Below are positions 25,767 to 54,663 of a DNA stretch of 64,000 nt, piece by piece; position 1 is the stretch's first letter, and each line of letters starts with the position of its first letter. Under the pieces are notes generated by a model, which was not told the origin of the DNA, ran no database searches, and was given only the letters and a program-made list of their open reading frames with translations. A program made the translations under genes and the position numbers. The stretch comes from Rhynchopus sp. YZ270_cl-10 (lineage: Eukaryota; Euglenozoa; Diplonemea; Diplonemida; Diplonemidae). The stretch lies in assembly GCA_964035575.1 (NCBI GenBank), contig OZ037839.1:806001-870000 (forward strand). Direction: 5' to 3'.

Positions 25767-27317
25767 TTACTTGTCATGTTCCTGCTTGTCCCCGCCCCCT
25801 AGTGCTTGCATCAAAGCTTCTCCTTCCTGTCCTGCTTTCAATGCAATACATTGTCTTGCATCTCCAGACACGTCTGCTTGTACTTCCTCAAAAGCTTCTA
25901 TCCGCACACCTCCGAACTGTTCCGTAAACCTTGCGTAAATCTCACGCACACGTACATAGAAGGTCTTCGTGAGTCCAGTGTCATGGTTCTTTTGGGCTTC
26001 ATTCGGGAGAGACATCTCGTGAATGTCGATGTTGCCTGGCAAGACGACTGTTGTGAGTGCGTTACAGTTGAGCAGGAAGTAACGCTGGATAATTGTGTCC
26101 CTGCCAAAACCTGACATGTCCAGCGTCGTCAAGGACGTGCAATCTTGCAAGAAAGATATATCAATCTGCGTAACATTGCTCATTCCTGAGAAGTCTGCTG
26201 TTGTCAACGCGGAGCACCCTTGCAACCAGCTTGGCTCAATCTCTGTGATGCTGTGCAACACTGATAAATCAACTGTTTTCAATGAAGAACAGTGACCAAG
26301 AAAGCAGTTCTTGATGTCTGTGGCACTCCCAAAAGCTGAAAGGTCGATACTTCCCAGCGAGGTGCAGATCGCAAGAAAGCTGTGCTCTACCTTTACAACT
26401 CTGTGCAGTGCTGATAAGTCAACCGTTTCCAACGAGGTGCAGCCCGCACAAAAGCAGTTCCCAATTTCCGTCACATTCGTCATCCCTGAGAAGCTGATGG
26501 TGGTCAACGACGAGCAGCCGGAGAGAAATCCGGAGCCGATCTTCGTGACACTGCCAAATGCCGACAAATCAATGATTGCCAACGAGGTGCAGTGCGACAG
26601 GAAGCTGTCCTCAATGTGCGTGATTCTGCGCCATCCTGAGATGTCAATCCTTTCCAACGACTGGCAGTTAAACAAGAAGTATGTACCAACCTCCGTCACA
26701 CTCGTCATATGGGATAAGTCAAGATTTGTGACGCCACTTTCACGGAGGAACGAGCTCCCTATCACCGTCACACCAGTGAACCCTGACACGTCAAGACTTG
26801 TCAACGATGGGCAGTCAAAGAGACAGAAACTCCCAATGTGCGTAACGTTGCACAATCCCGACAAGTCAACGGTTTCCAGCGACGCACACCCGGAGAGGAA
26901 GCCTTGCTCAATTCGTGTCACACCAGACACAGCAGAGAGATCAAGTGTCGCGAACGCTGTCTCCTGTAGGAAGCAGTTCGGAATAACAGTCGCAACCTCC
27001 GCCTGAAGAAGCAGAGAAGCCACCTCAGGATCCCTCACAGTCGCCAACCTCGCTTCGGAAATGTCTGTCTCACCCAAGGCACGAAGTGCTTCAACAGATT
27101 TGTACTTCGTCGACTTCGTCAATACGACTGTGTCTCCAGCACTCAGTTCTGTGATGTCCTCTCCTTCCTCCTTCCCTCCGAAGCCCATGCGGAAGCTGTC
27201 TTCGCACAACCCTGTTGCAGACGCCACCTTCTGCCGCATCGTCTCCGTTGTGTCGTTCTCACCCACCTCAATCACGAATTTGGTTTCATCATCGTATCCC
27301 TGCACACACAGTTCCAT
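25767..27317 (-). CDS. Ubl-LRR family protein 1
   Basis: 516 residues from the ATG at 27317; the frame stays open upstream but has no earlier ATG, and all family members begin MELCVQGYD. Residues 1-72 have a ubiquitin-like pattern (beta strand, DTTETMRQKV helix, GDTVVL final strand). A conserved linker (LGETDISEARL..DPEVASLLLQAEVATVIP) leads to about 13 repeats of 25 residues with the form SLxxIDLSxxxxVTxIGxxFLxxC. This is close to the LRR_5/BspA-like class. No signal peptide or membrane segment is seen, so it is probably intracellular. The variable residues relative to paralogs cluster around IGxxFLxxC. The C-terminus ends at GGGDKQEHDK without the FG-rich tail of members 4 and 6, so the tail may have been lost. 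Function unknown; a recognition role is inferred. Confidence 0.85.
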   Translation of the reverse strand: MELCVQGYDDETKFVIEVGENDTTETMRQKVASATGLCEDSFRMGFGGKEEGEDITELSAGDTVVLTKSTKYKSVEALRALGETDISEARLATVRDPEVASLLLQAEVATVIPNCFLQETAFATLDLSAVSGVTRIEQGFLSGCASLETVDLSGLCNVTHIGSFCLFDCPSLTSLDVSGFTGVTVIGSSFLRESGVTNLDLSHMTSVTEVGTYFLFNCQSLERIDISGWRRITHIEDSFLSHCTSLAIIDLSAFGSVTKIGSGFLSGCSSLTTISFSGMTNVTEIGNCFCAGCTSLETVDLSALHRVVKVEHSFLAICTSLGSIDLSAFGSATDIKNCFLGHCSSLKTVDLSVLHSITEIEPSWLQGCSALTTADFSGMSNVTQIDISFLQDCTSLTTLDMSGFGRDTIIQRYFLLNCNALTTVVLPGNIDIHEMSLPNEAQKNHDTGLTKTFYVRVREIYARFTEQFGGVRIEAFEEVQADVSGDARQCIALKAGQEGEALMQALGGGDKQEHDK

Positions 27318-27400
27318 TGTTTCGAGTGACGTGTTGCTCTGTTTTGGGGTAAGTGTTGAGAAGGAGGAGGAGGGAGGCAAGATACAACAAAATAGCTTTC
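27318..27400 (-). promoter_or_regulatory. Conserved leader of the Ubl-LRR genes: pyrimidine tract plus AG, then a 21-nt leader
   Basis: Read on the minus strand, a run of cctcc units and ttctcaacacttacccc precedes an acag (AG at 27339-27340). A leader of about 21 nt then ends in cgaaacaATGG. The same block precedes the ATG of all seven family members. It looks like a 3' splice site, either for a trans-spliced leader or for an intron in the 5' UTR. Confidence 0.5.
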
Positions 27401-27635
27401 TTGTTTGTTTTTCACTTAACTGTGTGGTAGAAAAGACCCTGGTCTGACACGTTGTTCACAAAAAGCGGTGGGACACTCCGGGTTGTCAGAGTTGTGCACC
27501 AAACCTGCCAAATATTCCACCCCATCTCGAAAGGGAATCCAAATATGAAGTTGATATTTTCACCGAAGTGTTCTTCACACACAAATCACCAAACCCCCCA
27601 AACCCCTCTGTTCATCCAGCTTGTCCTGCTCCTGT

Positions 27636-29129
27636 TTATGCTGCCCCCAACTCTCCAAATCCTCTTTTTGTTCCTCTTTTTTGTCCTCTTTTTTTCACTC
27701 TCTTTTGTCCTGCTTTCAATGTAATACATTGTCTTGCACTTCCAGACACGTCTGTTCGTACTGCCTCAAAAGCTTCCATCCGCACATCTTCGAACTGTTC
27801 CGTAAACCTTGCGTAAATCTCACGCACACGTACAGAGAAGGCCTCCTTGTAGGTGCTCATTCTAGGGTCTCCATTCGGGAGAGACAACATCTCGTCAATG
27901 TCGATGTTGCCTGGCAAGACGACTGTTGTGAGTGCGCTGCAGTTGATCAGGAAGCGGCGATGGATCTCTGTGCTCCTACCTATACCTGACATGTCCAGCG
28001 TCGTCAAGGATGTGCAATCTTTCAGGAAACCACCATCAATCTGTCTAACATTGCTCAGTCCTGATAAGTCTGCTGTTGTCAACGCGGAGCACCCTTCCAT
28101 CCAGCCTGGCCCAATGTGTGTGATGCTGCGCAACACTGATAAATCAACTGTTTTCAATGATGAACACTGCAAAAGAAAGTTGGTCCCGATGCCACAACCC
28201 ACCTTCACAACTTTGTGCAGTGCTGTCGAGTCAATCGTTTCCAACGAGGTGCAGGCCCAACAAAAGCTGTTCCCAATTTCCGTCACATTCGTCATCCCTG
28301 AAAAGCTGATGGTGGTCAACGACTTGCAGTTGAAGAGAAACTCGGAGCCGATCTTCGTGACACTGCAAAAAGCTGACAAATCAATGCTTGCCAACGAGGT
28401 GCAGCTCGACAGGAAGTTGTTCTGAATGTGTGTGATTCTGCGCCATCCTGAGATGTCAATCCTCTTCAACGAATTGCAGGAGGCAAGAAAGTCTGCACCA
28501 ACCTTCGTCACACTCGTCATATGGGATAAGTCAAGATTTGTGACGCCACATCCTTGGAGGAACCTGTTCCCTATCACCGTCACACCAGTGAACCCTGACA
28601 CGTCAAGGCTTCTCAACGATGTGCAGTCATAGAGACAGTAGTCCCCGATGTGCGTAACGTTGCACAATCCCGACAAATCAACGGTTTCCACCGACGCACA
28701 CTTGTAGAGGAAGTAGTCCTCAATTCGTGTCACACCAGACACAGCAGAGAGATCAAGTCTCGTAAACGATGCTTGCGACAAGAACCAGTTCGGAATAACA
28801 GTCGCAACCTCCGCCTGAAGAAGCAGAGAAGCCACCTCAGGATCCTTCACAGTCCGCAACCTCGCTTCGGAAATGTCTGTCTCACCCAAGGCACGAAGTG
28901 CTTCAAGAGATTGGTATTTCGTCGACTTCGTCAATACGACTGTGTCTCCAGCACTCAGTTCTGTGATGTCCTCTCCTTCCTCCTTCCCTCCGAAGCCCAT
29001 GCGGAAGCTGTCTTCGCACAACCCTGTTGCAGACGCCACCTTCTGCCGCATCGTCTCCGTTGTGTCCTTCTCACCCACCTCAATCACGAATTTGGTTTCA
29101 TCATCATATCCCTGCACACACAGTTCCAT
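27636..29129 (-). CDS. Ubl-LRR family protein 2
   Basis: 497 residues starting at the family MELC ATG. It has the same ubiquitin-like N-terminus, linker and 25-residue LRR units as its neighbours. The main variable windows read EDYFLYKC, GDYCLYDC, GNRFLQGC, GADFLASC and QNNFLSSC, against different residues at the same sites in its paralogs. One repeat has a short insertion (VGCGIGTNFLLQC). The end is decayed: after ITLKAGQ the frame runs into basic residues and stops at GELGAA. Just beyond, the DNA in another frame still encodes the family tail GFGGFGDLC (about 27560-27600), so the FG tail was lost by frameshift. The next member lies about 0.3 kb downstream on the same strand. Confidence 0.85.
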   Translation of the reverse strand: MELCVQGYDDETKFVIEVGEKDTTETMRQKVASATGLCEDSFRMGFGGKEEGEDITELSAGDTVVLTKSTKYQSLEALRALGETDISEARLRTVKDPEVASLLLQAEVATVIPNWFLSQASFTRLDLSAVSGVTRIEDYFLYKCASVETVDLSGLCNVTHIGDYCLYDCTSLRSLDVSGFTGVTVIGNRFLQGCGVTNLDLSHMTSVTKVGADFLASCNSLKRIDISGWRRITHIQNNFLSSCTSLASIDLSAFCSVTKIGSEFLFNCKSLTTISFSGMTNVTEIGNSFCWACTSLETIDSTALHKVVKVGCGIGTNFLLQCSSLKTVDLSVLRSITHIGPGWMEGCSALTTADLSGLSNVRQIDGGFLKDCTSLTTLDMSGIGRSTEIHRRFLINCSALTTVVLPGNIDIDEMLSLPNGDPRMSTYKEAFSVRVREIYARFTEQFEDVRMEAFEAVRTDVSGSARQCITLKAGQKRVKKRGQKRGTKRGFGELGAA

Positions 29130-29530
29130 TGTTTCGAGTGACGTGTTGCTCTGTTGTGGGGTAAAGTGTTGAGAAGGAGGAGGAGGTCAAGATACAACAA
29201 AATAGCTTTCTTGTTTGTTGTTGTCCTTCCGTAATATTCCGTACTTTTCTTTTCCCCACCCATTTGCTTTAACCTTGCTTGCATGGGGTGATCTGAGGAC
29301 TTTTTTACAATACCCCCCATTCTCTATTTTGCTGTCGTCCTCTCTTTGTTCACCGTATCCATCCTCTCTCTCTCTCTCTCTTTTTTGAAACATCCAAAAG
29401 ACCCGAAAAACCCTCAAAAACCCACGTATTGCAAGAGCTCTGTGCGAAGAAGAACTGAGAGTTGCATTACAAGGGTGGAGTGACATGAAATGAAATGAAC
29501 CGGTGACAAAAGGTGAAGGCGATCTCTGTT

Positions 29531-29618: not shown

Positions 29619-29706
29619 GGCTCAACAATTTTTGTGCAAATGAAGTTCGATATGTTCACCGTCTTCTTCACACAAGTCACCAAACCCGCCAAATGCTCCT
29701 GCTTCC

Positions 29707-31416
29707 CTACTCCTGCTTGTGTTGCTCCTGTTTGTCCCGTCCAAACCCTCCAAACCCTCCTGCTTGCAAATCTCCTGTTTGTCCCGTACCAAGCCTCCTC
29801 CTTTTCGTCCTCCCTGTTTGTCCTGCTCCAAGTCCTTCTGATAGTCCTTCTCCTGTTTGTCCTGCCCCAAACCCTCCAAATCCTCCTGCTTGTCCTCGTC
29901 CTGATGTGCTTACATCAGACCGTTCTCTCTCTTGTCCTGCTTTCAATGCAATACATTGTCTTGCACTCCCAGACACGTCTGTTCGTACTGCCTCAAAAGA
30001 TTCTATCCGCACATCTTCGAACTGTTCCGTAAACCTTGCGTAAATGTCACGTACATGTGCATGGAAGGTCTTCGTGCCGTCGCTCAAGCCCACGTTTGCA
30101 TGAATGTCGATATTGCCTGGTACGAAGAGTGTTGTGAGTGCGTTGCAGTTGAGCAGGAAGTCGCAGCTGATTGTTGTGTCACTGCCAAAACCTGATATAT
30201 CCAGCGTGGTCAAGGATGTGCAATCTTGCAGGAAATATGCATCAATCTGCGTAACATTGCTCATTCCTGAGAAGTCTGCTGTTGTCAACGCGGAGCACTC
30301 TTGCATCCAGCCGCCCTCAATATGTGTGATGCTGCGCAACACTGATAAATCAACTGTTTGCAATGATGAACACTCTTTTAGAAACGCTGACCCAACAAAC
30401 CCCCCTGACCCAATGGCTGTGACATTGCCAAAAGCTGAAAGGTCGATACTTCCCAGCGAGGTGCAGCTCTCAAGAAAGCCATACTCTACCTTCACAACCC
30501 TGTGCAGTGCTGATAAGTCAATCGTTTTCAACGAGGTGCAGTACGAACAAAATGCCATGTCAATTTCCGTGACATTGGTCATCCCAGAAAAGCTGACGGT
30601 GGGCAACGACTCGCAGCAGGTGAGAAAGTCGGAGCCGATCTTCGTGACATTGCCAAATGCTGACAAATCAATCGTTGCCAACGAAGTGCTGTGCGACAGG
30701 AAGTTGTTCTCAATGTGCGTGATTCTGTGCCATCCTGAGATGTCAATCTTTTCCAACGACTGGCAGTAGGCAAGAAAGTATGCACCAACCTCCGTCACAC
30801 TCGTCATATGGGATAAGTCAAGCTTTGTGATGCCAGTTCCTTTGAAGAACGAGTCCCCTATCACCGTCACAGCAGTGAACCCTGACACGTCAAGGCTTGT
30901 CAACGATGGGCAGTCAGAGAGAAAGAAACGCCCAATGTGCGTAACGTTGCACAATCCCGACAAATCAACGGTTTCCACCGACCTACAACTGTAGAGGAAG
31001 TGGTGCTCAATTCGTGTCACACCAGACACAGCAGAGAGATCAAGTCTCGTAAACGATGCTTGCGCCAAGAACCAGTGCGGAATAACAGTCGCAACCTCCG
31101 CCTGAAGAAGCAGAGAAGCCACCTCAGGATCCTTCACAGTCGCCAACCTCGCTTCGGAAATGTCTGTCTCACCCAAGGCACGAAGTGCTTCAACAGATTG
31201 GTACTTCGTCGACTTCGTCAACACGACTGTGTCTCCAGCACTCAGTTCTGTGATGTCCTCTCCTTCCTCCTTCCCTCCGAAGCCCATGCGGAAGCTGTCT
31301 TCGCACAACCCTGTTGCAGACGCCACCTTCTGCCGCATCGTCTCCGTTGTGTCGTTCTCACCCACCTCAATCACGTATTTGGTTTCATCATCATATCCCT
31401 GCACACACAGTTCCAT
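29707..31416 (-). CDS. Ubl-LRR family protein 3, frameshifted tail
   Basis: 569 residues from the family ATG at 31416. The ubiquitin-like domain, linker and LRR block are intact, with variable windows such as EHHFLYSC, GRFFLSDC, GDSFFKGT, GAYFLAYC and ENNFLSHS. Several windows have replaced the usual Cys by Thr or Ser. After the LRRs the frame enters a Gln/Gly-rich tail related to the FG repeats, but in a shifted frame it becomes DKQEQHKQE and stops. In the neighbouring frame the true family ending (GAFGGFGDLCEEDGEHIELH) is still readable down to about 29622, so the tail has been knocked out of frame. The start region shares about 150 bp of 5' flank with member 2. Confidence 0.85.
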   Translation of the reverse strand: MELCVQGYDDETKYVIEVGENDTTETMRQKVASATGLCEDSFRMGFGGKEEGEDITELSAGDTVVLTKSTKYQSVEALRALGETDISEARLATVKDPEVASLLLQAEVATVIPHWFLAQASFTRLDLSAVSGVTRIEHHFLYSCRSVETVDLSGLCNVTHIGRFFLSDCPSLTSLDVSGFTAVTVIGDSFFKGTGITKLDLSHMTSVTEVGAYFLAYCQSLEKIDISGWHRITHIENNFLSHSTSLATIDLSAFGNVTKIGSDFLTCCESLPTVSFSGMTNVTEIDMAFCSYCTSLKTIDLSALHRVVKVEYGFLESCTSLGSIDLSAFGNVTAIGSGGFVGSAFLKECSSLQTVDLSVLRSITHIEGGWMQECSALTTADFSGMSNVTQIDAYFLQDCTSLTTLDISGFGSDTTISCDFLLNCNALTTLFVPGNIDIHANVGLSDGTKTFHAHVRDIYARFTEQFEDVRIESFEAVRTDVSGSARQCIALKAGQERERSDVSTSGRGQAGGFGGFGAGQTGEGLSEGLGAGQTGRTKRRRLGTGQTGDLQAGGFGGFGRDKQEQHKQE

Positions 31417-32423: not shown

Positions 32424-35400
32424 TCACAGGTGTATCCAAAAATGCAGTTCAATAGGTTCACCGAAGTGTTCTTCACACAAATCACCAAACCCTCCAAATC
32501 CCCCTGCTTGTCCTGTTCCTGTTTGTCCACCCCCAAACCCTCCAAACCCTCCTTCTTGTGTTGCTCCTGCTTGTCCTACACCAAACCCTCCAAACCCTCC
32601 TGCTTGTGTTGCTCCTGCTTGTCCTGCACCAAACCCTCCAAATCCTCCCGTTTGTGTTGCTCCTGCTTGTCCTACACCAAACCCTCCAAACCCTCCTGCT
32701 TGTGTTGCTCCTGCTTGTCCTGCACCAAACCCTCCAAATCCTCCTGCTTGTGTTGCTCCTGCTTGTCCAGCCTCCTCCTCCTCCTCGTCCTCGTCGTCAG
32801 ATCCCTTGTTTGCCTGGTACTCGGCGAGCTTGACCTGGTACTCCTTCTTCAGATCAAGCGCCTTCTCGGTGTACTCAGTCTTGTCCTCGTCGTCCATCTC
32901 CCCCCAACGCCTGCCACATTCCTTGGCGATGTCACCAATCTTCCAGTCCGGGTTCTCCTCCTTCAGCTCGGCACGGATGTCGTTGACGAAGATGAAGTAG
33001 GCGCTGAGAGGACGCTTCGGTGCGTTGGGGTCCTCCTTGGCCTTGCGCTTCTTGGGACCTTCGTCCTCCTCCTCGTCCTCGTCGTCAGATCCCTTGTTTG
33101 CCTCACACTCAGCAAGCTTGACCTGGTACTCCGTCTTCAGCTCAGCACCAAACCCTCCAAACCCTCCTGCTTGTGTTGCTCCTGCTTGTCCACCCCCAAA
33201 CCCTCCAAATCCTCCTGCTTGTGTTGCTCCTGCTTGTCCTACACCAAACCCTCCGAATCCTCCCGTTTGTGTTGCTCCTGCTTGTCCTGCACCAAACCCT
33301 CCAAACCCTCCTGCTTGTGTTGCTCCTGTTTGTCCACCCCCAAACCCTCCAAATCCTCCCATTTGTGTTGCTCCTGTTTGTCCAGCCTCCTCCTCCTCCT
33401 CGTCCTCGTCGTCAGATCCCTTGTTTGCCTGGTACTCGGCGAGCTTGACCTGGTACTCCTTCTTCAGATCAAGCGCCTTCTCGGTGTACTCAGTCTTGTC
33501 CTCGTCGTCCATCTCCCCCCAACGCCTGCCACATTCCTTGGCGATGTCACCAATCTTCCAGTCCGGGTTCTCCTCCTTCAGCTCGGCACGGATGTCGTTG
33601 ACGAAGATGAAGTAGGCGCTGAGAGGACGCTTCGGTGCGCTGGGGTCCTCCTTGGCCTTGCGCTTCTTGGGACCTTCGTCCTCCTCCTCGCCCTCGTCGT
33701 CAGATCCCTTGTTTGCCTCACACTCAGCAAGCTTGACCTGGTACTCCGTCTTCAGCTCAGCACCAAACCCTCCAAACCCTCCTGCTTGTGTTGCTCCTGC
33801 TTGTCCTGCACCAAACCCTCCAAATCCTCCTGCTTGTGTTGCTCCTGTTTGTCCACCCCCAAACCCTCCAAATCCTCCTGCTTGTGTTGCTCCTGCTTGT
33901 CCTGCACCAAACCCTCCAAATCCTCCTGTTTGTGTTGCTCCTGTTTGTCCTGTACCAAAGCCTCCAAATCCTCCCATTTGTGTTGCTCCTGTTTGTCCTG
34001 CACCAAACCCTCCAAATCCTCCTGCTTGTGTTGTTCCTGTCTGTCCTACACCAAACGCTCCAAATCCTCCTGTTTGTCCTGCACCAAACCCACCAAACCC
34101 TCCAAATCCTCCTGCTTGTGTTGCTCCTGTTTGTCCTGCACCAAACCCTCCAAACCCTCCTGTTTGTGTTGCTCCTGTTTGTCCTGTACCAAAGCCTCCA
34201 AATCCTCCCATTTGTGTTGCTCCTGTTTGTCCTGCACCAAACCCTCCAAATCCTCCTGCTTGTGTTGTTCCTGTCTGTCCTACACCAAACGCTCCAAATC
34301 CTCCTGTTTGTCCTGCACCAAACCCACCAAACCCTCCAAATCCTCCTGCTTGTGTTGCTCCTGTTTGTCCTGCACCAAACCCTCCAAATCCTCCTGTTTG
34401 TGTTGCTCCTGTTTGTCCTGTACCAAAGCCTCCAAATCCTCCCATTTGTGTTGCTCCTGTTTGTCCTGCACCAAACCCTCCAAATCCTCCTGCTTGTGTT
34501 GTTCCTGTCTGTCCTACACCAAACGCTCCAAATCCTCCTGTTTGTCCTGCACCAAACCCACCAAACCCTCCAAATCCTCCTGCTTGTGTTGCTCCTGTTT
34601 GTCCTGCACCAAACCCTCCAAACCCTCCTGTTTGTGTTGCTCCTGTTTGTCCTGTACCAAACCCTCCAAACCCTCCTGTTTGTGTTGCTCCTGTTTGTCC
34701 TGTACCAAACCCTCCAAACCCTCCTGTTTGTGTTGCTCCTGTTTGTCCTGTACCAAACCCTCCAAATCCTCCTGCTTGTGTTGCTCCTGTTTGTCCTGCA
34801 CCAAACCCTCCAAATCCTCCTGTTTGTGTTGCTCCTGTTTGTCCTGCACCAAACCCTCCAAATCCTCCTGTTTGTGTTGCTCTTGCTTGTCCTGCACCAA
34901 ACCCTCCAAATGCCGCAGTGACGGGCAGGATCTCACGCACCTGCTTCGTTGCAATGTTTGTATGCTGTGCCGTCTTGCCTCTGATGAAAGAGAAGATGAG
35001 GTGCCCCCCAAAAGCGTCTATCCGCTGCACACCTCCGAACTGTTTCCTCGCGTAAATATCACACACACGTGCATGGAAGGTCTGTCGCTTCTCCTTGCTG
35101 ATGCTAAAGCCTACTTTATTCGCGGGACACTGCTGCCTGTTCTCGTTTCTCTTGTGCGCTTCTTTTGGGAGAGACATCTCGTGAATGTCGAAGTTGCCTG
35201 GCACGGAGAGTGATGTGAGTGCGTCGCAGTTGAGCAGGAATCCGTCGACCTCGACCGTTGTGTCACTGGCTATTCCTGACATGTCCAGCGTCGTCAAGGA
35301 TGTGCACTCTTTCAGGAAATTTACACCAATCTGCGTAACATTGCTCAGTCCTGATAAGTCTGCTGTTGTCAACGCAGAACACTTTTGCAACCAGCTGCCC

Positions 35401-39769: not shown

Positions 39770-40133
39770 GTAACCCCACATAGGCCCATTACCATGGTTT
39801 CGTTAGCCCTTGTGACATGCCCTCCTGCAGTTTCCTGCTCATCGGCGGCCTCTAGTCCGTGTGGACTTGGGCCACTACCAGCTTCCGGAGGAGCGACGCT
39901 CACGTGCGACCGTCGGACCGGTCACTGCTCTGGGTGCCATGTGCTCTAGCCAATTCTTGACGAGGATGGGGGTGCAGACCGCCAAGTCCGGACGGTCGGA
40001 GGGAACCTTCCCCACCGCACGTCAGTTCTCCTTAGCTCTTTGTGACTTGACTCGTGCCGGTGCTGGTGTCTACAAGCTTCAACCTCTTCTTGTGACCCAC
40101 CGAGCACGCAGCCAACAGTGCGTCAAACCCTCA

Positions 40134-40699
40134 GGATCCACAAATCAATGGTTGCCAACGAAGTGCAATAATAGAGGAAGTTGTCCTCAATGTGCGTGAT
40201 TCTGCGCCATCCTGAGATGTCAAGACTTTTCAACGAGTTGCAGTAGGCAAGAAAGTGTGCACCAACCTTCGTCACACTCGTCATCTCGGATAAGTCAAGA
40301 TTTGTGACGCCACTTGCTTGTAGGAATAACTTCCCTAACACCGTCACACCAGTGAACCCTGACACGTCAAGGCTTGTCAACGATGTGCAGTCATAGAGAC
40401 AGTAGTCCCCGATGTGCGTAACGTTGCACAATCCCGACAAGTCAACGGTTTCCACCGACGTACACCTGTAGAGGAAGCCTTCCTCAATTCGCGTCACACC
40501 AGACACAGCAGAGAGATCAAGTCTCGTAAACGATGCTTCGCTCAAGAACCAGTTCGGAATAACAGTCGCAACCTCCGCCTGAAGAAGCAGAGAAGCCACC
40601 TCAGGATCCTTCACAGTCCGCAACCTCGCTTCGGAAATGTCTGTCTCACCCAAGGCACGAAGTGCTTCAACAGATTGGTACTTCGTCGACTTCGTCAAC
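40134..40699 (-). pseudogene. Ubl-LRR family member 5, C-terminal part, cut by a LINE
   Basis: Encodes the linker and the first five to six LRR units of the family (variable windows EEGFLYRC, GDYCLYDC, GKLFLQAS, GAHFLAYC, EDNFLYYC). The ubiquitin-like half lies across the LINE at 46196-46407. The 3' side stops abruptly at about 40134, where the DNA changes to unrelated sequence after cctcaggatcc. The copy is therefore broken at both ends. The LRR windows differ from every neighbour. Confidence 0.85.
40682..40699. repeat. Target-site duplication, left copy (18 bp)
   Basis: The sequence ttcgtcgacttcgtcaac is repeated exactly at 46196-46213. The two copies bound the LINE. Confidence 0.9.
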
Positions 40700-43700: not shown

Positions 43701-45770
43701 CTTCAGCGGTTCCTCGCCTTCTCCTTTGGGGATGAGCACCACCATAGCCCTCGCAATTGCCCTGGGCCAGTTTCCTGTCTCCTCAATCACGTTCAGGCAG
43801 CACGCTAGCTCTTCCAGCATTAACGGAGGTAGTTCCTTCAGCTCCTCCACTCTCCATCCATCGAGGCCTGCCGCCTTCTTCCGCTTCATCTTGCCGATGG
43901 TCTTGCTGAGGTCCTCGCCGGTCAAAGGTCCGCAGTCACAGGGTGCCCCCTCGGGAATGTGCTCCTTGAACCTCTCGAAGAAGGTCGCCCATGCAGGTTC
44001 CTCGGATTCGCCGTACATCCGGAACACCCCTCCCCACGCCTGGTCACCCATAAGAAGCTCGTCCATCTCCTTGAGGTTGGCAGTCACAGTGCCGTCCTCT
44101 CGTTTCAGGAAAGTCGTGTGCGAAGACGTGGCTTTTCTTAACGTCTGGAAGACCTTCTCGGGGCTTGACGTCATGTGTTCCTTCATGGAGCGACGCCATT
44201 CTCGGATGCGTTTCTGTCGTCGGCGCTCGAGTAAGGCCAGCCCTTGCTTCTTTAGGCACCCAAGGAGACCACACAACGCTTCTACGTCGGGGTGTTCGAG
44301 ACCCCAAGTGTCGTTCTGCAGAAGATGTCGTTTCGCACGCGCTTTCGCCCACAGGTGTCTCTCATCCACCGATTCCGCAGAAGGTTGGCCGATGCGCTTC
44401 CTCCGTCCACCAATGAGTTGTTCCAGTTGTCGACACGTCTTCTGCAACTGAGCCGTCTCCAGGTTCACAGCATCAGGCATGTCGGGGTCCGTGCGAGCCG
44501 ACCGATGTCGCAATACATCAGGTTTCACCTCACCTCTCCCCCTGTGGCGGTGCTGTTTTGCCTCAATCTCACCCCTCCGCAGGAAGTAGTCCTCTGCAGT
44601 TTTGCAAAAGCGAGCCCAACGCTCCTCAACAGATAGCTTCTCGAGTTCGGCGTCGGTGAGTGCGTTCTCTTGCAGCACCTCTCTCGCAAGCACCTTCTCC
44701 TTGGCAGCCGGCCATTTGGACCAATCCTCGCCAATCAGGGGTAGGGGAGGACGTGCTTGGGGAGCCTTCTGCTCGTAACACTCGAGGTCCAGTGTCAGCA
44801 CCACCGGCCTGTGGGTGGAGATGCAGCTGTCAGTCCAGACCTCCACTTTGGAGATTGCAGGAGCAGCCACGTGGTTCGCCAATACCAGGTCGATGCGGCT
44901 GCCAGAAGATGTGGAGGTGTAGCACGTTTTCTCCACTTCCGTACCCGACTGCTGCGCGTACGAGTCTGCTGCATCAACCCATTTTCCGGAGGAGATTGCC
45001 GCTCGGATGACAGCGCTCTCCTGTGCCTCGACGTTGAAGTCTCCGGCAATGAACACCGGTATGTCCCCAAGGCTGGCAGCTTCCTCCAGGATGTCTGTCA
45101 GGAGTAGTTCCGTGCGGGCCTTGTCGTCACACACACCATAAAACGAGAAGACAGAGATGTTGCGTCCTCCGTTCCCATAAGCCACCTGCGCATGTGACAG
45201 ACGACATTCCTCCCATGCTTTCTGGGCACCCTGCGGCGGTACCGCTCTGGTTGGTATGTCTGCGCGCGACATGATCGCAACCCCACCGTTTTGTGTCCGT
45301 GTGCGCAGGTCGGATCCTCGGCTTCGTCTGCAGGGGGCACCAAAGAGGATCTGTTTGGCGCCAAACTCCTTAACGGCAAGCGCAGCACCCTTCATCTCAT
45401 CCGCTGTGAGGCGCACTTCCTGCAGCGCGCAGATGTCCAGATCCCATTCCCCCACCGCGAAGTGTGCCGACAAGGATGTCACATTCGCAGTGCCAAGCAT
45501 CATGGACGGACCCGGATTCTCCTCCACGTCTCCACATGTCAGCAGTGACCCCCTGCCCAAAAACGCCCCCCGTCGCCTCCCTCGACGCACTCTTTGTCGA
45601 GCCCCTCGACCCACCCCTCTACGTGTTCTACCCTTACCCCTAGTCCCCGACAGCATACAGCCCGCAGAGCGCAAACGATGCTGACCCCTTGTTGGGGAGA
45701 CAGTTTTCACAAAAACGTCTCGTTCTCCAACTACGCACGAAGAAGCCAATCCTGTGCCGTACCCTTCCAC
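40770..45770 (-). CDS. LINE polyprotein: 2A peptide, AP endonuclease, reverse transcriptase, Cys/His modules
   Basis: 1666 codons open from 45770; that first codon is GTG, and the first ATG is codon 39 (45656). An Arg-rich leader ends in GRGSLLTCGDVEENPGP (residues 72-88; 45507-45557), the 2A sequence at which ribosomes skip a peptide bond before the final Pro. Then comes an AP endonuclease (TANVTSL, LQEVRLT, GDFNVEA near 246, SRIDLVLAN near 295, STHRPV near 319) and a reverse transcriptase (ASFDYQKCFDRV near 762, GILQGCPLS near 819, YADD near 850). A CPYC..HMWWEC zinc motif lies near 1189. The end holds two modules C-x2-H-x4-C-x2-C-x8-9-HCC-x2-HH (1569-1596 and 1609-1635) and the motif QTTLGGLF (1642-1649), like a PCNA-binding box. 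No RNase H seen. Activity is plausible but untested. Confidence 0.92.
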   Translation of the reverse strand: MEGYGTGLASSCVVGERDVFVKTVSPTRGQHRLRSAGCMLSGTRGKGRTRRGVGRGARQRVRRGRRRGAFLGRGSLLTCGDVEENPGPSMMLGTANVTSLSAHFAVGEWDLDICALQEVRLTADEMKGAALAVKEFGAKQILFGAPCRRSRGSDLRTRTQNGGVAIMSRADIPTRAVPPQGAQKAWEECRLSHAQVAYGNGGRNISVFSFYGVCDDKARTELLLTDILEEAASLGDIPVFIAGDFNVEAQESAVIRAAISSGKWVDAADSYAQQSGTEVEKTCYTSTSSGSRIDLVLANHVAAPAISKVEVWTDSCISTHRPVVLTLDLECYEQKAPQARPPLPLIGEDWSKWPAAKEKVLAREVLQENALTDAELEKLSVEERWARFCKTAEDYFLRRGEIEAKQHRHRGRGEVKPDVLRHRSARTDPDMPDAVNLETAQLQKTCRQLEQLIGGRRKRIGQPSAESVDERHLWAKARAKRHLLQNDTWGLEHPDVEALCGLLGCLKKQGLALLERRRQKRIREWRRSMKEHMTSSPEKVFQTLRKATSSHTTFLKREDGTVTANLKEMDELLMGDQAWGGVFRMYGESEEPAWATFFERFKEHIPEGAPCDCGPLTGEDLSKTIGKMKRKKAAGLDGWRVEELKELPPLMLEELACCLNVIEETGNWPRAIARAMVVLIPKGEGEEPLKQRPITITSVMYRLWAATRLRKVAAWQESWIHQRQHGFRNKHGTEDLLWYLCAKMEEALIDNTPIYLASFDYQKCFDRVPQEIMFRLVEQLGLPQNMMRPIRGMYKKLGRRFKLPAGLGQEWFATNGILQGCPLSVIFLNALVAVWMNGVERETGTQGLAYADDTNLLTKTLSQLRTGVTFTGHFADLTGQRIHVGKSTWQSNRPDEEETVQMNGSDLTRVEKSVCLGATVQARQAGAPTLPTKLEETIRECGPLSDKVGRLPLTQGEKAGIMQAAVMSKSVYGITVQDPNVCCETTLGNAMERGIHGANRVSRRSTRVMLNLFEKGHLLDPGVAFDYRRIMTWAKMTRKSEEICALLENCRVRAKRKQAKSGGPIGLVARALLRLNWKWESATTVTTHDGNLIDVKTIELGELGHLVRERMFFVRLSSTKTDVNAKGGGRANLRGIRAGVDKEKTLALTKSKVLSDYEAGTLRHIVADGTLTGVRLARAKLRETATCPYCAAGVDEDPKHMWWECVAWESIRTDYPLLLNIDRTNWPNCLSICGMCTPETPLATARVADLQMMMVRILIERYRQNRTQEMKPQLEQERYPWTWEPDADTTTQYPNVLGSCTLPVKKWPYGRALLLAIAYWLGGLRWSNEAGREVSHMELLIDFEVSTGMDIRPGDKTGKKPPKVKQPGNGAGGVVNGGGGGDGEMDDGGGEGGSDDGDGDDVMPEALPHNEMAKATTFGHMLSTLRTHAATPLHPGKPKIAMTLTSFGAHGLAGIDCRPVFAGGEETIRVLRALFDAGTAYRQQRKTEGMTEGEIRGNGRARGTWMGEYAAETAYPPADERGRRALRFFEQAEEENVPIRYRHDEHVKPGDAPVKAPAGAISIGPFAICVQHRKARCDACAKDQMADLRHCCYAHHSDGDGLAIRHEACTRHRLSRCGNCVRDKTTLDHCCRRHHDTAGGRQTTLGGLFSKKKQKDGHSRGGDGLM

Positions 45771-45782: not shown

Positions 45783-46187
45783 TCACCGCACCACATCGCG
45801 CAGGGTGTTGCGGCCTACTATCCTGTTGTCCAGTCCCTGGACGGGACGAAACGCGATCTCGATGACGCCCCCCGCCACCTTCACGACAGTCACCGGGATG
45901 GCTGCGCCGTTGCCTCCCTCCTCGCAGTACTCCATGGAGTCGCCAGCCTCCAGCACTGCGTTCCCGTACGACTCCTCGTTCTTCTCGTTCCCCTCCGCCT
46001 GCTCTTTTGCGGGGACTTCCGTCCGTATCCTGCGCGGCGGACTCAGCAGCGCCACCGTCTCACCGGACTCACTGCGGTCTTCCCGCTTGCCCGCCAGGGT
46101 CACAGCAGGTGGCGCCACCGGCACTCTGGGAGCTGGCGAGGTCTCCGCGTCCTCCTCGACAGCCGCACATTCTGGCGAAGTCTGCAC
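45783..46187 (-). CDS. LINE upstream frame, in phase with the polyprotein
   Basis: 134 codons, open from near the 5' end of the element to a TGA at 45783-45785. The frame is the same as that of the polyprotein, with only four codons between the TGA and the first codon listed for it. It has no ATG near its start (the first is within DSMEYCEEGG), so either the element is slightly 5'-truncated or translation starts unusually. Composition is acidic then hydrophobic (VTVVKVAGGVIEIAFRPVQG). The stop context is TGA CGG, a known leaky context in some viruses, so read-through is possible. No family recognised. Confidence 0.5.
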   Translation of the reverse strand: MQTSPECAAVEEDAETSPAPRVPVAPPAVTLAGKREDRSESGETVALLSPPRRIRTEVPAKEQAEGNEKNEESYGNAVLEAGDSMEYCEEGGNGAAIPVTVVKVAGGVIEIAFRPVQGLDNRIVGRNTLRDVVR

Positions 46188-46195
46188 CGGCAGTG

Positions 46196-46213
46196 TTCGT
46201 CGACTTCGTCAAC
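46196..46213. repeat. Target-site duplication, right copy (18 bp)
   Basis: Exact match to 40682-40699. Confidence 0.9.
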
Positions 46214-46407
46214 ACGACTGTGTCTCCAGCACTCAGTTCTGTGATGTCCTCTCCTTCCTCCTTCCCCCCAAAGCCCACATGAAAGCTGTCTTCGCACAAC
46301 CCTGTTGCAGACGCCACCTTCTGCCGCATCGTCTCCGTTGTGTCGTTCTCACCCACCTCAATCACGTATTTGTTTTCATCATCATATCCCTGCACACACA
46401 GTTCCAT
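46196..46407 (-). pseudogene. Ubl-LRR family member 5, N-terminal part, cut by a LINE
   Basis: Begins at the family ATG (46407) and encodes the ubiquitin-like domain up to TVVLTKST. There the LINE target duplication (46196-46213) begins and the frame runs into LINE sequence. The conserved leader with pyrimidine tract and AG is present upstream. Small differences from its neighbours (DENKYV, DSFHVGFGG) show that it is a separate copy. Confidence 0.88.
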
Positions 46408-47250: not shown

Positions 47251-49386
47251 TCACAGGTGTATCCAAAAATGCAGTTCAATAGGTTCACCGAAGTGTTCTT
47301 CACACAAATCACCAAACCCTCCTGCTTGTGCTGTTCCTGCTTGTCCTGCCCCAAACCCTCCAAACCCTCCTGCTTGTCCTGCTCCTGTTTGTCCTGCTCC
47401 AAACCCTCCAAATCCTCCTGCTTGTGTTGCTCCTTCTTGTCCTGCACCAAACCCTCCAAATCCTCCTGCTTGTGTTGCTCCTTCTTGTCCTGCACCAAAC
47501 CCTCCAAACCCTCCTGCTTGTGTTGCTCCTTCTTGTCCTGCCCCAAACCCTCCAAATCCTCCTGCTTGTCCTGCTCCTGTTTGTCCTGCTCCAAACCCTC
47601 CAAATCCTCCTGCTTGTGTTGCTCCTTCTTGTCCTGCACCAAACCCTCCAAATCCTCCTGCTTGTCCTGCTCCTGTTTGTCCTGCACCACACCCTCCAAA
47701 TCCTCCTGCTTGTGTTGCTCCTGTTTGTCCTGCCCCAAACCCTCCAAACCCTCCTGCTTGTCCTGCTCCTGTTTGTCCTGCACCAAACCCTCCAAATCCT
47801 CCTGCTTGTGTTGCTCCTGCTTGTCCTGCCCCAAACCCTCCAAATCCTCCTGCTTGTCCTGCTCCTGTTTGTCCTGCCCCAAACCCTCCAAATCCTCCTG
47901 CTTGTGTTGCTCCTGCTTGTCCTGCCCCAAACCCTCCAAATCCTCCTGCTTGTGTTGCTGCTGTTTGTCCTGCTTTCAATGCAATACATTGTCTTGCATC
48001 TCCAGACGCGTCTTGTCCTGCTGCCTTAAAGCGTACTACCCGCACACCTCTGGACTGTTTAGCAAACATTGCGTACATTACACGCGCCCGCACATGAAAC
48101 GGTACCGACCTGCACCGCAGCATGCTACGCTCCTCATTTGATAACTTCTCGTCAATGTCGATGTTGCCTGGAAAGACGACTGTTATGAGTGCGTTGCAGT
48201 TGCGCGGGAATTGGCTTCCGACCTGCGCGTCGATCATCGTGTCCCTACCTATTCCTGACATGTCCAGCGTCGTCAAGGATGTGCACCCTTGCAGGAAATA
48301 TTCTTGAATCCGTTTAACATGGCTCATTACAGAGAAGTCTGCTGTTGTCAACGCGGAGCAGTTAACAAGAAAGTAGTGCCCGATGTCTGCGACACTGCCC
48401 AAAGCTGAAAGGTCGATACTTCCCAGCGAGGTGCAGCCCTTCAGAAAGCCTTGCCCTACCTTCATAACTTTGTGCAGTGCTGATAAGTCAATCGTTTCCA
48501 ACGAGATGCAGTCCCTACAAAAGCTGTCCCCAAGTTCCGTCACGTTGGTCATCCCTGAAAAGTTGATGGTGGTCAACGACTTGCAGTGGCCGAGAAAGTC
48601 GGAGCCGATCTTCGTGACACTGCAAAAAGCTGACAAATCAATGGTTGTCAACGAGAAGCAGCTCTGGAGGAAGTTGCCCTCAATGTGCGTGATTTTGCGC
48701 AATACTGAGATGTCAATCTTTTCCAACGATTTGCAGCTGAGAACAAAGCCTGCACCAACCTTCGTCACACTCGTCATCGCGGATAAGTCAAGATTTGTGA
48801 CGCCACTTCCTGCGAGGAACCTGTTCCCTATCACCGTCACACCAGTGAACCCTGACACGTCAAGGCTTGTCAACGATGGGCAGTAAGAGAGACAGGCATT
48901 CCCAATGTGCGTAACGTTGCACAATCCCGACAAGTCAACGGTTTCCACCGACGCACACCCGTAGAGGAAGTAGTCCTCAATTCGTGTCACCCCAGACACA
49001 GCAGAGAGATCAAGTCTCGTAAACGATGCTCTGCACAAGAACTGCTTCGGAATAACAGTCGCAACCTCCGCCTGAAGAAGCAGAGAAGCCACCTCAGGAT
49101 CCTTCACAGTCGCCAACCTCGCTTCGGAAATGTCTGTCTCACCCAAGGCACGAAGTGCTTCAACAGATTGGTACTTCGTCGACTTCGTCAACACGACTGT
49201 GTCTCCAGCACTCAGTTCTGTGATGTCCTCTCCTTCCTCCTTCCCTCCGAAGCCCATGCGGAAGCTGTCTTCGCACAACCCTGTTGCAGACGCCACCTTC
49301 TGCCGCATCGTCTCCGTTGTGTCGTTCTCACCCACCTCAATCACGTATTTGGTTTCATCATCATATCCCTGCACACACAGTTCCAT
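47251..49386 (-). CDS. Ubl-LRR family protein 6 with FG-rich tail
   Basis: 711 residues from the family ATG at 49386. The ubiquitin-like domain, linker and LRR block match the other members, with variable windows EDYFLYGC, GNACLSYC, GNRFLAGS, GAGFVLSC and EGNFLQSC. From about residue 470 to 692 a tail of 16-residue GGFGGFGAGQ(T/E/A)GATQA units follows, alternating with GAGQA variants. The protein closes with FGDLCEEHFGEPIELHFWIH, the same ending as member 4. No HMG box is present here. The FG tail has no charged linkers and few hydrophobic residues other than Phe, the pattern of phase-separating FG domains; that behaviour is inference. The gene lies immediately upstream (on the minus strand) of the LINE-split member 5. 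Confidence 0.87.
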   Translation of the reverse strand: MELCVQGYDDETKYVIEVGENDTTETMRQKVASATGLCEDSFRMGFGGKEEGEDITELSAGDTVVLTKSTKYQSVEALRALGETDISEARLATVKDPEVASLLLQAEVATVIPKQFLCRASFTRLDLSAVSGVTRIEDYFLYGCASVETVDLSGLCNVTHIGNACLSYCPSLTSLDVSGFTGVTVIGNRFLAGSGVTNLDLSAMTSVTKVGAGFVLSCKSLEKIDISVLRKITHIEGNFLQSCFSLTTIDLSAFCSVTKIGSDFLGHCKSLTTINFSGMTNVTELGDSFCRDCISLETIDLSALHKVMKVGQGFLKGCTSLGSIDLSALGSVADIGHYFLVNCSALTTADFSVMSHVKRIQEYFLQGCTSLTTLDMSGIGRDTMIDAQVGSQFPRNCNALITVVFPGNIDIDEKLSNEERSMLRCRSVPFHVRARVMYAMFAKQSRGVRVVRFKAAGQDASGDARQCIALKAGQTAATQAGGFGGFGAGQAGATQAGGFGGFGAGQTGAGQAGGFGGFGAGQAGATQAGGFGGFGAGQTGAGQAGGFGGFGAGQTGATQAGGFGGCGAGQTGAGQAGGFGGFGAGQEGATQAGGFGGFGAGQTGAGQAGGFGGFGAGQEGATQAGGFGGFGAGQEGATQAGGFGGFGAGQEGATQAGGFGGFGAGQTGAGQAGGFGGFGAGQAGTAQAGGFGDLCEEHFGEPIELHFWIHL
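47310..47975 (-). repeat. 48-bp tandem repeat array encoding GGFGGFG units
   Basis: About 14 units of 48 bp, of the same family as 32480-34917. Opposite-strand and shifted frames are open across it by virtue of the unit length. Confidence 0.88.
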
Positions 49387-52440: not shown

Positions 52441-53580
52441 TGTGAGTGTTGCTGTGGGTGTCTGGTGAGTGGCATTAGACAAGCCTCATTGTGGGCGAAA
52501 TACAGGCGCCACTTCTAGAGAAGGCTTTGATGTACAATGGGGTGATTGGGGGGCTTTCTTTTTCAGGAAAATTCACTTGAGGTTCGCATAAATCCACAAA
52601 GCCTTCACAAAATATTCACTATCGATATCGAGTAATTTCTTTTTCTGTACCTACCCTCCCCCGTGCATAAGTCCGACCCCCATTACCCGTGCATAAGTCC
52701 GGGCAGATTTGGGCTCAGGATCGGACTTATGCACAGGCCGACTTATGCACCGGTTTTGTGTACTGGTACTGAACCACCAATATCCCGGACCACATCGTTG
52801 ATTCTTCAATGCTATGCACTTCGCATTGTTCAAATGTACACCACAACCTACTCAACGTGCTACACCATTGATGAAAACAAAAAAAAAAAAAAAAAAAACA
52901 AACAAAAAAACAAAAAAATCGACCAAAAAGAAGAAGAAGAAAAAGGAACACAATGACGCAAAGATAAATCGTGGCCATTGATGCAGACATTCCTCTGATC
53001 GACCCCCTATACTCAGCCATCCGGATGAAAACACCATAGAGAAATTGAAAGCGCGAATGCTTGGATATCAGGCAGTCATCGGGCGTTGGTTATACCATGA
53101 GATATGGAGCACAGCACACCCAGAGCACTGTGAGTATTGTATACACAATACCGACAAAACAAAAACCATATTTGGCACGTTAAATGGACACAGGAGAAAG
53201 CCTAGGGTTCGATGCCAGTCATGACCAGTGTACTACACATTGGTCATCCCCGCAGTAAAATAAAAAAACAACCAAAAAAAATATTATTGAGATGAACCTA
53301 CCGGGAGTGAAAAATACGGAAGTAACAAAGTGGAATGGCATGAAGAATGCCGGCGGAATGTGAAGTGGTGTGAAGTGAAGGAAAGAGAGTTGAAGTGAAG
53401 GACACGCAGAGAGCACAAGAGGAACTGTGCCCTTGATCCGACCCCAAAGAAGTGTCCAATGAAGGTGGGTGGTACAGTGGGGATGATTTCTTGCTCACTC
53501 AACAAAACACTACTCGACCCGCCCAAACACACAGAATAATCCTAACACCCCAATTCCCACTCCCGCTTTCTTTACTGCCC
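52441..53580. other. Repeat-rich intergenic stretch
   Basis: No gene seen. Contains direct repeats of cccgtgcataagtccg (52660-52700), a dispersed A-rich repeat (52808-52929), a short R1 fragment (52975-53035), a B-box-like ggttcgatgcc at 53208 and a hairpin-tail-like gatgaacctac at 53290. Confidence 0.55.
52808..52929 (+). repeat. Dispersed repeat with A-rich end, copy 2
   Basis: Partner of 29531-29618. The A-rich run is longer here, and the closing aatcgaccaaaaag is retained. Confidence 0.65.
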
Positions 53581-54663
53581 CTAAAAACCAACGTCACCTA
53601 GTCTGCTGCGTACAACGTTGCTACACTTGTCCAGTCCGTCGACTTTCGACAACGTTCTGCAGTTGGAAAGAAACCTGTAACCAATCGTGGTGACTGCTTG
53701 CAGGCCGGTGAAGTCCACTTCCGACAACGATGTGCAGTTGGAGAGAAAATAATCACCAATCGTGGTGACTGCTTGCAGGCCGGTGAAGTCCACTTTCGAC
53801 AACGATGTGCAGTAGGAGAGAAAACTGTAACCAATCGTGGTGACTGCTTGCAGGCCGGTGAAGTCCACTTCCGACAACGATGTGCAGTTGTAGAGAAACC
53901 CGCCACCAATCGTGGTGACTGATTGCATGCCGGTGAAGTCCACTTTCGACAACGTTGTGCAGTTGGAGAGAAACCTATCACCAATCGTGGTGACTGCTTG
54001 CAGGCCGGTGAAGTCCACTTCCGACAACGATGTGCAGTCGGAGAGAAAATCGTCACCAATCGTGGTGACTGATTGCATGCCGGTGAAGTCCACTTTCGAC
54101 AACGTTTCGCAGTTGGAGAGAAACCTATCACCAATCGTGGTGACTGCTTGCAGGCCGGTGAAGTCCACTTCCGACAACATTTTGCAGTTGCAGAGAAACC
54201 CGTAACCAATCGTGGTGACGCAGGGTAATGCAGGCAGGTGCAGTGTGATGCCACAGTTGTCATCCACATTGGGTACGCAACTGAAACCAATGCGCGTTAC
54301 GTCACTACCTGAGAAGAACTCTTCTGGAATCTCAGTCGCAACTTCTGCCTGAAGAAGCAAGCTGGCCACCTTCGGATCCTCCACCTGCTGCAACCTTTCT
54401 GCTGTGATGTTTGTTTCACCCAATGCATGAAGAGCTGATATGGCTTCGTATTTCGTCGTTTTCGTCAACACGACTGTGTCTCCAGCACTCAGTTCTGTGA
54501 TGTCCTCTCCTTCCTCCTTCCCTCCGAAGCCCATGCGGAAGCTGTCTTCGCACAACCCTGTTGCAGACGCCACCTTCTGCCGCATCGTCTCCGTTGTGTC
54601 GTTCTCACCCACCTCAATCACGTATTTGGTTTCATCATCATATCCCTGCACACACAGTTCCAT
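53581..54663 (-). CDS. Ubl-LRR family protein 7, divergent LRR block
   Basis: 360 residues from the family ATG at 54663. The ubiquitin-like half is nearly identical to the others, but after TVVLTKTTKY the sequence diverges: the linker reads AISALHALGETNITAERLQQ and the LRRs are a homogeneous run of eight 25-residue units of the form LSEVDFTGLQAVTTIGDRFLSNCTS, encoded by 75-bp DNA repeats. Again the changes between units fall at IGxxFLxxC, while the rest is almost identical. It ends RSRLGDVGF with no FG tail. The DNA repeats alternate two versions (GLQAV and GMQSV), showing unit duplication in pairs. Probably intracellular, function unknown. It is the array member furthest upstream on the minus strand. 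Confidence 0.85.
   Translation of the reverse strand: MELCVQGYDDETKYVIEVGENDTTETMRQKVASATGLCEDSFRMGFGGKEEGEDITELSAGDTVVLTKTTKYEAISALHALGETNITAERLQQVEDPKVASLLLQAEVATEIPEEFFSGSDVTRIGFSCVPNVDDNCGITLHLPALPCVTTIGYGFLCNCKMLSEVDFTGLQAVTTIGDRFLSNCETLSKVDFTGMQSVTTIGDDFLSDCTSLSEVDFTGLQAVTTIGDRFLSNCTTLSKVDFTGMQSVTTIGGGFLYNCTSLSEVDFTGLQAVTTIGYSFLSYCTSLSKVDFTGLQAVTTIGDYFLSNCTSLSEVDFTGLQAVTTIGYRFLSNCRTLSKVDGLDKCSNVVRSRLGDVGF

Follow-up and report, generated by a model that had tools for sequence, protein, structure and literature searches.

An array of Ubl-LRR genes

The stretch of DNA analysed here, in the following called the window, comprises 64,000 nt (G000:C7:806001-870000) of a genome of 152.4 Mb in 126 contigs. 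It contains seven copies of one gene type, all on the minus strand, in which a ubiquitin-like (Ubl) head (MELCVQGYDDETK...DTTETMRQKVASATGL...) is followed by leucine-rich repeats (LRRs) of the BspA type. These Ubl-LRR genes, which start at positions 27317, 29129, 31416, 36479, 46407, 49386 and 54663, are the subject of this report; they belong to a large family in which diversifying selection acts on one and the same register of the repeats. Gene A (25767..27317) is an open reading frame (ORF) of 516 aa with the Ubl head and about 12 BspA-type LRR units, matched by the Pfam profiles LRR_5 (E 1.5e-30) and, under the Pfam cut-off, ubiquitin (E 3.8e-4). Genes B (27636..29129, 497 aa) and C (29707..31416, 569 aa) were defined by ORF, Pfam and codon alignment, genes D (32424..36479, 1351 aa) and F (47251..49386, 711 aa) by ORF and Pfam. 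Gene E is a broken copy. Its 5' piece (46069..46407, ORF) contains the Ubl head and reads on into an inserted retroelement, and its 3' piece (40123..40698, codon alignment) contains the linker and the first LRR units and then a stop. Between them, also on the minus strand, lies the ORF of a non-LTR retrotransposon (40770..45770) with Pfam matches to endonuclease and reverse transcriptase and, by eye, a 2A-like start; an 18-base target duplication is found on both sides of the element (~46196-46213 and ~40682-40699). Gene G (53581..54663), assigned by sequence and Pfam, has the same Ubl head and the same hypervariable register, but its LRR units are of another class (class II, DFTGLQAVTTIGxxFLxxC), and therefore six of the window genes can be compared unit by unit.

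Two copies carry additional C-terminal sequence. The last part of genes D and F is a long array of the GGFGGFGAGQTGATQ type (window ~32424-35000 and 47251-48000), a tail of GGFGGFG type, and in gene D two HMG boxes were found as well (HMG_box, Pfam E 2.7e-43). A nucleoporin-like tail is puzzling on what may be a recognition-type protein.

Variation is concentrated in one register of the repeat

The first-pass annotation had claimed that hypervariability is confined to the same part of every repeat, IGxxFLxxC, which we call the repeat window. Indeed, all twelve strings that it quoted are present in the codon alignment of the six genes and assigned to the right gene. In the first unit they read EQGFLSGC (A), EDYFLYKC (B), EHHFLYSC (C), EEGFLFRC (D), EEGFLYRC (E) and EDYFLYGC (F); in the unit at HIE they read EDSFLSHC (A), QNNFLSSC (B), ENNFLSHS (C), EDGFLHNC (D), EDNFLYYC (E) and EGNFLQSC (F). 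In gene A the two repeat windows are IEQGFLSGC (26886..26912, alignment columns 136-144) and IEDSFLSHC (26589..26615, columns 235-243). The claim stands for six of the seven genes, whose scaffold is near-identical, and gene G has the same pattern in its other repeat class.

The comparison was extended by 21 further genes of the class of genes A to F (class I), taken from twenty 10-kb stretches of the same genome, to a total of 27 genes that passed a scaffold motif filter; at least L006:1155-2357, L009:4039-5406, L020:3812-5455 and the partial genes L008:9230-10000 and L014:1-1059 failed it. In ten units the mask for the repeat windows followed the IGxxFLxxC motif; for irregular units a further 16 columns, of which 12 are columns of repeat windows, were selected manually once the column table had been inspected. 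One short unit has one residue fewer and was shifted by one from position 9 on for the residue profile; in the mask, one of its columns counted as following the repeat window is off by one. Over the ten 25-residue units of the 27 genes the mean residue diversity was 0.73, 0.80, 0.70 and 0.74 at unit positions 2, 3, 6 and 7; it amounted to 0.44 at position 9 (after the C), 0.37 at position 24 and 0.34 at position 1 (the G), and to 0.04-0.24 at the remaining 18 of the 25 positions. The four x positions of I-G-x-x-F-L-x-x-C thus lie far above the rest, i.e. the variation is concentrated in the same register of every repeat. S, N, G, D, Q, R, Y and H are common among the residues found there.

The repeat windows are under diversifying selection

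Nonsynonymous (dN) and synonymous (dS) substitutions per site, determined by the method of Nei and Gojobori, were 0.73 and 0.28 in the repeat windows and 0.058 and 0.127 in the scaffold. The flanking codons had been described as unchanged even at silent sites; their high identity was borne out, a complete identity is excluded by the scaffold dS. The maximum likelihood estimate of dN/dS (omega; GY+F3X4, tree from scaffold sites) was 3.91 for the repeat windows and 0.50 for the scaffold; two of the 27 genes were left out of tree and codon model, and the partitions of the remaining 25 were run separately on the fixed tree. Fixing omega at 1 (kappa 1.84) lowered the log likelihood of the repeat windows from -3454.73 to -3500.24, a cost of 45.5. 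With a tree derived from the repeat windows themselves, omega was 3.44 and omega = 1 lowered the log likelihood from -3354.87 to -3391.59, a cost of 36.7. The same contrast is seen between close relatives: the closest pair, neighbours in the stretch L008, differs by 20 bases in 237 scaffold codons and by 54 bases in 48 codons of repeat windows, and in the 30 closest pairs the fraction of first and second codon positions that differ is 0.447 in repeat windows and 0.034 in the scaffold. A uniform substitution along the repeats or a dN/dS below 1 in the repeat windows had been named beforehand as findings that would speak against a diversifying repertoire. The residue profile is uneven and the dN/dS of the repeat windows is 3.4-3.9, and both support such a repertoire; register-confined diversifying selection in this family is real and strong, and the scaffold is under purifying selection.

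Two further repeat classes show the same register. In class II (24 units from 4 frames) first and second codon positions differ by 0.519 in repeat windows and 0.063 in the scaffold, and in class III (35 units from 4 genes on contigs C3, C4 and C5) by 0.594 and 0.134. In both classes the repeats within a gene are near-identical and the same positions vary, the codon model covering class I only. Further small sets (5 units of C21 and 6 units of C29) were too few to judge.

The Ubl core is nearly uniform on several contigs

A degenerate 32-base pattern for DTTETMRxKVA (65,536 spellings) had 240 matches in the genome, 131 and 109 on the two strands, and the reversed pattern had none; the 240 are occurrences of the Ubl-core stretch, counted as pattern matches and not as whole genes. 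One single spelling is shared by 90 of the 100 listed places (contigs C2, C3, C4, C5 and C7). When gene A was compared with four genes of C3, C4 and C5, the silent differences per same-residue codon rose from 0.08-0.11 in the Ubl core through 0.23-0.31 in the linker to 0.55-0.66 in the LRRs. Among 44 heads that were fetched, a difference of 0.061 separates the C7-type class from that of C3, C4, C5 and C21, and one of 0.22-0.23 separates it from two more distant heads (the latter on an ungapped alignment, residue identity 0.42-0.51). The uniformity of the Ubl core must stem either from conversion across chromosomes or from a constraint on the nucleotides themselves. Antisense coding was considered as a cause of the silent uniformity and rejected: antisense frames span the first ~480 bases in several genes, extend beyond the core and do not fit it. 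A recombination signal was also found, using a home-made test of the pairwise homoplasy index (PHI) type, with p 0.002 for all sites, the minimum for 500 permutations, and p 0.046 for scaffold sites.

Insertions were seen in further family members. The gene at reverse-strand offset 6886 of L006 is split near codon 90 by an insert of ~620 bases with a target repeat on both sides, and heads of two classes (L006 offset 6886 and L021 offset 1311) enter one and the same element (...PDGGPPPIAHFCGARAYGISIF) at almost identical sites. LRR halves that lack a preceding head (L004, L007 and L009) may share this cause.

Family size and domain composition

When the genome was searched at the protein level, there were 1838 candidates, of which 86 were scored, and these yielded 166 matches. 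Most of the matches listed are located on contig C7 between 0.5 and 1.93 Mb and others on 16 further contigs; most lie in open frames of the assembly, and four contain an internal stop. By our own count, taking one match per gene and at least 73 percent identity, there are ~73 class I genes, 58 of which have the head in the same match. A search of a public protein set, in which 8000 candidates were scored, yielded 791 relatives at E <= 0.001. Of the 120 that were listed, at least seven come from this organism: six match open frames of the fetched stretches exactly save for the annotated start residue, and a seventh, P0091, is identical over 230 comparable residues. Stretches of viral contigs that matched the pattern (27) did not encode a relative.

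LRR_5 was found in all six window proteins examined with 95-109 bits (cut-off 27.7; E 5e-27 to 2e-31) and in 108 of 108 relatives scanned, which places the family in the TpLRR type, with FL standing for AF. A ubiquitin match at E <= 0.01 was obtained for 60 of the 108 relatives, the best with 6e-8. The family profile matches polyubiquitin chains; the scores for a single domain are weak (~8-13 bits). B-boxes were found in one of the 108 relatives, P0043, where two profile matches (E 0.0014 and 0.0088, both below cut-off) precede Ubl and LRR; the combination of RING and B-box that marks TRIM-type E3 ligases was not found among the families listed. In four relatives no F-box was detected at E <= 1, and among the listed families the only connection is an LRR profile from an F-box protein. 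NACHT and NB-ARC are absent from the six window proteins examined. By eye, the stretch before the Ubl-LRR part in L013:3945-5786 resembles the layout of the B-box relative P0043.

A putative recognition repertoire and its alternatives

The best explanation, which we consider rather probable, is that the genes encode, in the germline, a repertoire of intracellular recognition proteins whose Ubl head is constant. An intracellular location is suggested by frames that start at the Ubl. The framework residues would build a solenoid of the BspA/TpLRR type behind the head, and the four x residues of each unit would stack along it to a variable surface of ~50 residues. From the general geometry of LRRs, positions that follow the strand face the convex or edge side. 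The published TpLRR pattern puts the repeat windows after the LxxLxL strand (PMC2843621), and therefore the variable surface is probably on the convex or edge side. Point mutations in the repeat windows would be fixed by strong diversifying selection, and recombination and gene conversion among the copies would homogenise the scaffold, most strongly the Ubl core, and would also reshuffle some repeat windows. Such a surface might bind foreign or fast-evolving proteins, be it of viruses, of bacterial prey or parasites or of non-self cells, and the Ubl head, before which one relative has the weak B-box matches, may hand over the target, once bound, to a ubiquitin- or TRIM-like output. As for the function as a whole, an immune or self/non-self role would be our best guess.

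Several results weigh against this reading. The Ubl of the window genes is weakly ubiquitin-like, its matches to the ubiquitin profile in the six proteins (E 3e-4 to 5e-3) being below the Pfam cut-off. No Gly-Gly follows it and a Gly is aligned with Ile44 of ubiquitin, i.e. the Gly-Gly end and the Ile44 patch of conjugated modifiers are missing, which makes a standard proteasome dock doubtful. RING, F-box, NACHT and NB-ARC are not among the 25 of 28 Pfam families listed for the 108 relatives. The repeat windows change partly block-wise: in the 30 closest pairs the variance of the number of identical residues is 1.16 and that of permuted data 0.77. Silent sites add to this. In class I, 4-fold third bases differ by 0.123 in repeat windows vs 0.092 in the scaffold where positions 1 and 2 agree and by 0.216 vs 0.147 where they do not, and in the 30 closest pairs by 0.113 (n=292) vs 0.067 (n=3512). 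In class II the changes at the third base only are 22 synonymous and 16 nonsynonymous, and same-residue silent change is about twice as high in repeat windows (0.092, 22/238) as in the scaffold (0.043). Further, an omega determined on a single tree can be inflated by recombination.

The same evolution could serve another use. The proteins could be adaptors that mark endogenous fast-evolving proteins, such as those of mobile elements, for degradation, or they could be delivered outwards against prey or hosts. The Ubl head, the relative with B-box matches and the insertions of mobile elements in family genes agree with this; the missing RING and F-box families noted above are against it, and we regard it as unlikely, though worth keeping in mind.

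Secondly, the repeat windows could mainly be swapped as short cassettes by gene conversion from many donors, with selection only keeping the result. The PHI-type test and the block-wise change point this way, and whole repeat windows are common to some genes (DYCLYDC in B and E, NACLS in D and F); from the block-wise change it follows that conversion of repeat windows contributes. However, the 254 repeat windows contain 219 distinct four-residue words and 220 distinct combinations of position and word, and only a single word recurs at different unit positions. Counted over the 30 closest pairs, 110, 115, 74, 34 and 22 repeat windows have 0, 1, 2, 3 and 4 identical residues, so that 223 of the 355 differ partly. 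Since 27 of the ~73 class I genes were sampled, donors may have been missed. We read these data as new variants arising by point mutation plus some exchange, and an origin mainly by cassettes is improbable.

A third possibility is a mutator, somatic or germline, that acts locally or on certain codon positions of the repeat windows without positive selection. The extreme contrast of first and second positions in the 30 closest pairs would suit it, as would the somewhat greater difference of class I 4-fold third bases and the doubled silent rate of class II. Silent differences between codons for the same residue are, however, near the scaffold rate in class I (0.089 in repeat windows, 0.079 in the scaffold) and lower than it in class III (0.174 vs 0.346); silent sites are not clearly elevated in class I repeat windows, and a local mutator is not needed there. 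Differences at the third base only, in the CA, AA, GA and AG boxes of class I, are 124 synonymous and 599 nonsynonymous in repeat windows, and 663 and 514 in the scaffold. A mutator blind to meaning would not produce this; third-base changes that are mostly replacements fit selection at the codon level and do not fit a mutator of positions 1 and 2. When codons for different residues were compared (12,081 comparisons), the third base was the same in 0.654 of the cases, and in 0.368 after codons were exchanged among columns within each amino acid (200 shuffles, largest value 0.386), which shows that each column mostly passes on its own third base and changes at the first two. All these silent, third-base and shuffle figures are pairwise counts and not independent events. 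We consider a mutator quite improbable. Codon-usage bias was rejected as the source of the fixed third base: it is column-specific (A, C, G or T), and the agreement is far above that given by codon use within an amino acid.

Relaxed constraint, by which the x residues would be free, drifting loop positions in an otherwise conserved repeat, is suggested by the published TpLRR pattern, which leaves those positions free (PMC2843621). Drift gives dN = dS at most, as opposed to the dN of 0.73 against a dS of 0.28 in the repeat windows and of 0.127 in the scaffold, and omega = 1 is worse than 3.4-3.9 by 37-46 log units; drift is hardly credible, unless the excess is entirely due to recombination on a single tree.

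The first-pass annotation had further noted that many variable codons keep a pyrimidine as third base and had been reminded of adenine-directed diversification, as in diversity-generating retroelements (DGRs), in which the reverse transcriptase makes errors at A when copying a template. In 49 columns, those in or after the repeat windows with enough change at positions 1 and 2, C is the most common third base 30 times, G 10 times, A 6 times and T 3 times; the fixed third base is thus not a pyrimidine in every case. The nucleotide diversity of the third base is 0.303 in A columns, 0.294 in C columns, 0.264 in G columns and 0.417 in the three T columns, i.e. A columns are as conserved as C and G columns, and of the first and second positions those with A as the most common base vary least (0.392, compared to 0.444 for C, 0.464 for T and 0.517 for G). 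A direction of the changes to adenines in class I repeat windows is thus not supported. Although many codons end in C, D, N, Y, H, S and G are frequent in the repeat windows and a reverse transcriptase is present in the window, a DGR-like origin can be dismissed almost entirely: its simple form fails the adenine tests, third-base changes happen where the residue changes, E, Q and K make up 15 percent of the residues and cannot be reached from AAC or AAT by changing A alone, and the reverse transcriptase sits in a non-LTR element with a target duplication.

Comparison with known systems

Plant NLRs (nucleotide-binding LRR proteins) and lamprey VLRs (variable lymphocyte receptors) use an LRR scaffold whose exposed residues are diversified for recognition on the concave LxxLxL face. 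In the Ubl-LRR proteins, by contrast, the LxxLxL strand varies little and the neighbouring segment varies. LRR and Ubl are combined in one eukaryotic protein in TBCE and TBCEL. These tubulin cofactors are conserved single proteins, and their Ubl is located at the opposite end; to our knowledge, no such diversification occurs in them.

The nearest described logic is that of the HNWD genes of the fungus Podospora (het-d, het-e and het-r). Their WD40 repeats are near-identical by concerted evolution, with exchange within and between loci, and strong diversifying selection acts on two codon pairs per repeat, at the surface predicted to bind (PMC2873952, PMC12222747). The Ubl-LRR repeats are likewise homogenised, with four codons per repeat under diversifying selection; they have the high internal conservation of recognition repeats of this kind, with selection between genes seen in class I. 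HNWD proteins are, however, NOD-like (STAND) proteins with a WD40 beta-propeller, whereas here a TpLRR solenoid with a Ubl head is found in a euglenozoan with 240 copies of the head. The Ubl-LRR proteins are also not members of the HNWD or NLR families, as neither NACHT nor NB-ARC was matched in the six window proteins or among the families listed for the 108 relatives.

The BspA-like genes of Trichomonas vaginalis have the same repeat type and number hundreds, and IGxxFLxxC fits their published pattern [LIV]xxxAFxx[CNST] with FL for AF; they differ in that some carry signal peptides or transmembrane segments (PMC2843621). In the text of that paper, 'ubiquitin' and 'hypervariable' do not occur and 'positive selection' occurs once. 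The LRR genes of Tetrahymena with 90-bp exons are likewise a very large, young and fast-changing protist family, with ectopic recombination and transposons nearby, but they change by shuffling of 90-bp exons and in repeat number, in contrast to the fixed codons of continuous open frames in Ubl-LRR genes (PMC6564038). 'Positive selection' and 'hypervariable' are absent from the text of that paper, in which a legend names Ka/Ks. Within the Euglenozoa, bodonin of Bodo saltans belongs to a different, transmembrane family, an early paper on Bodo saltans describes single LRR genes, and the Diplonema papillatum genome paper does not contain 'leucine-rich' or 'LRR'. Among the matches listed in open-licence papers, there was no paper on a Ubl-LRR family of this kind.

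Animals, plants and filamentous fungi are known to have recognition repertoires in which the contact residues are diversified within a fixed frame, and the Ubl-LRR family would, if the reading is correct, extend such logic to single-celled flagellates of the Euglenozoa. More specifically, ~240 shared, silently uniform Ubl heads in front of LRR solenoids with an omega near 4 on the segment beside LxxLxL may constitute a protist immune or self/non-self system whose constant-and-variable layout is kept by gene conversion; we put this forward tentatively, with doubt slightly outweighing belief. It would then be a system of a kind that, in the literature covered, is described for no protist. The family is a testable entry to how protists recognise viruses, prey, parasites or each other, and a natural case of a constant region that is uniform on several chromosomes beside a variable region kept apart by selection.

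Host genome and neighbouring sequences

Paraflagellar rod proteins (PF05149), which we take to be restricted to Euglenozoa, had 30 matches in the genome and none in 14 control genomes, and the genome is most likely euglenozoan, as judged from these genes. A gene for small subunit (SSU) rRNA of 2052 bases is present in a tandem array on contig C111. The end-pattern of SSU rRNA also occurs at G000:C1:942283 and at ten other dispersed places; the C1 copy is diverged and had no Rfam match. Upstream of the start codons a pyrimidine tract and AG were found. With a pattern presumed to be that of the spliced leader, true spliced-leader genes were not found in the genome; spliced-leader-like sequences are located at two isolated places (G000:C45:541744-541778 and G000:C14:1213001-1213019; reversed pattern 0), neither of them followed by GT, and they are perhaps copied-back mRNAs.

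Beside the Ubl-LRR array, neighbouring frames of the window (16187-19573) contain part of a B-box and, weakly matched and below cut-off, part of a SPRY domain; together these are TRIM-like. An open frame of 3948 residues (602-12448) with HECT, two SPRY stretches and a Laminin_G-type domain likely encodes a ubiquitin ligase, judging by these domains, and the frame at 60027-61670 resembles a cytochrome P450 by eye (FNAGPRTCLG). Elsewhere on the contig, at G000:C7:131864-161176, a short pattern occurs seven times with five of the six intervals being exactly 4870 bases, i.e. as a tandem array.

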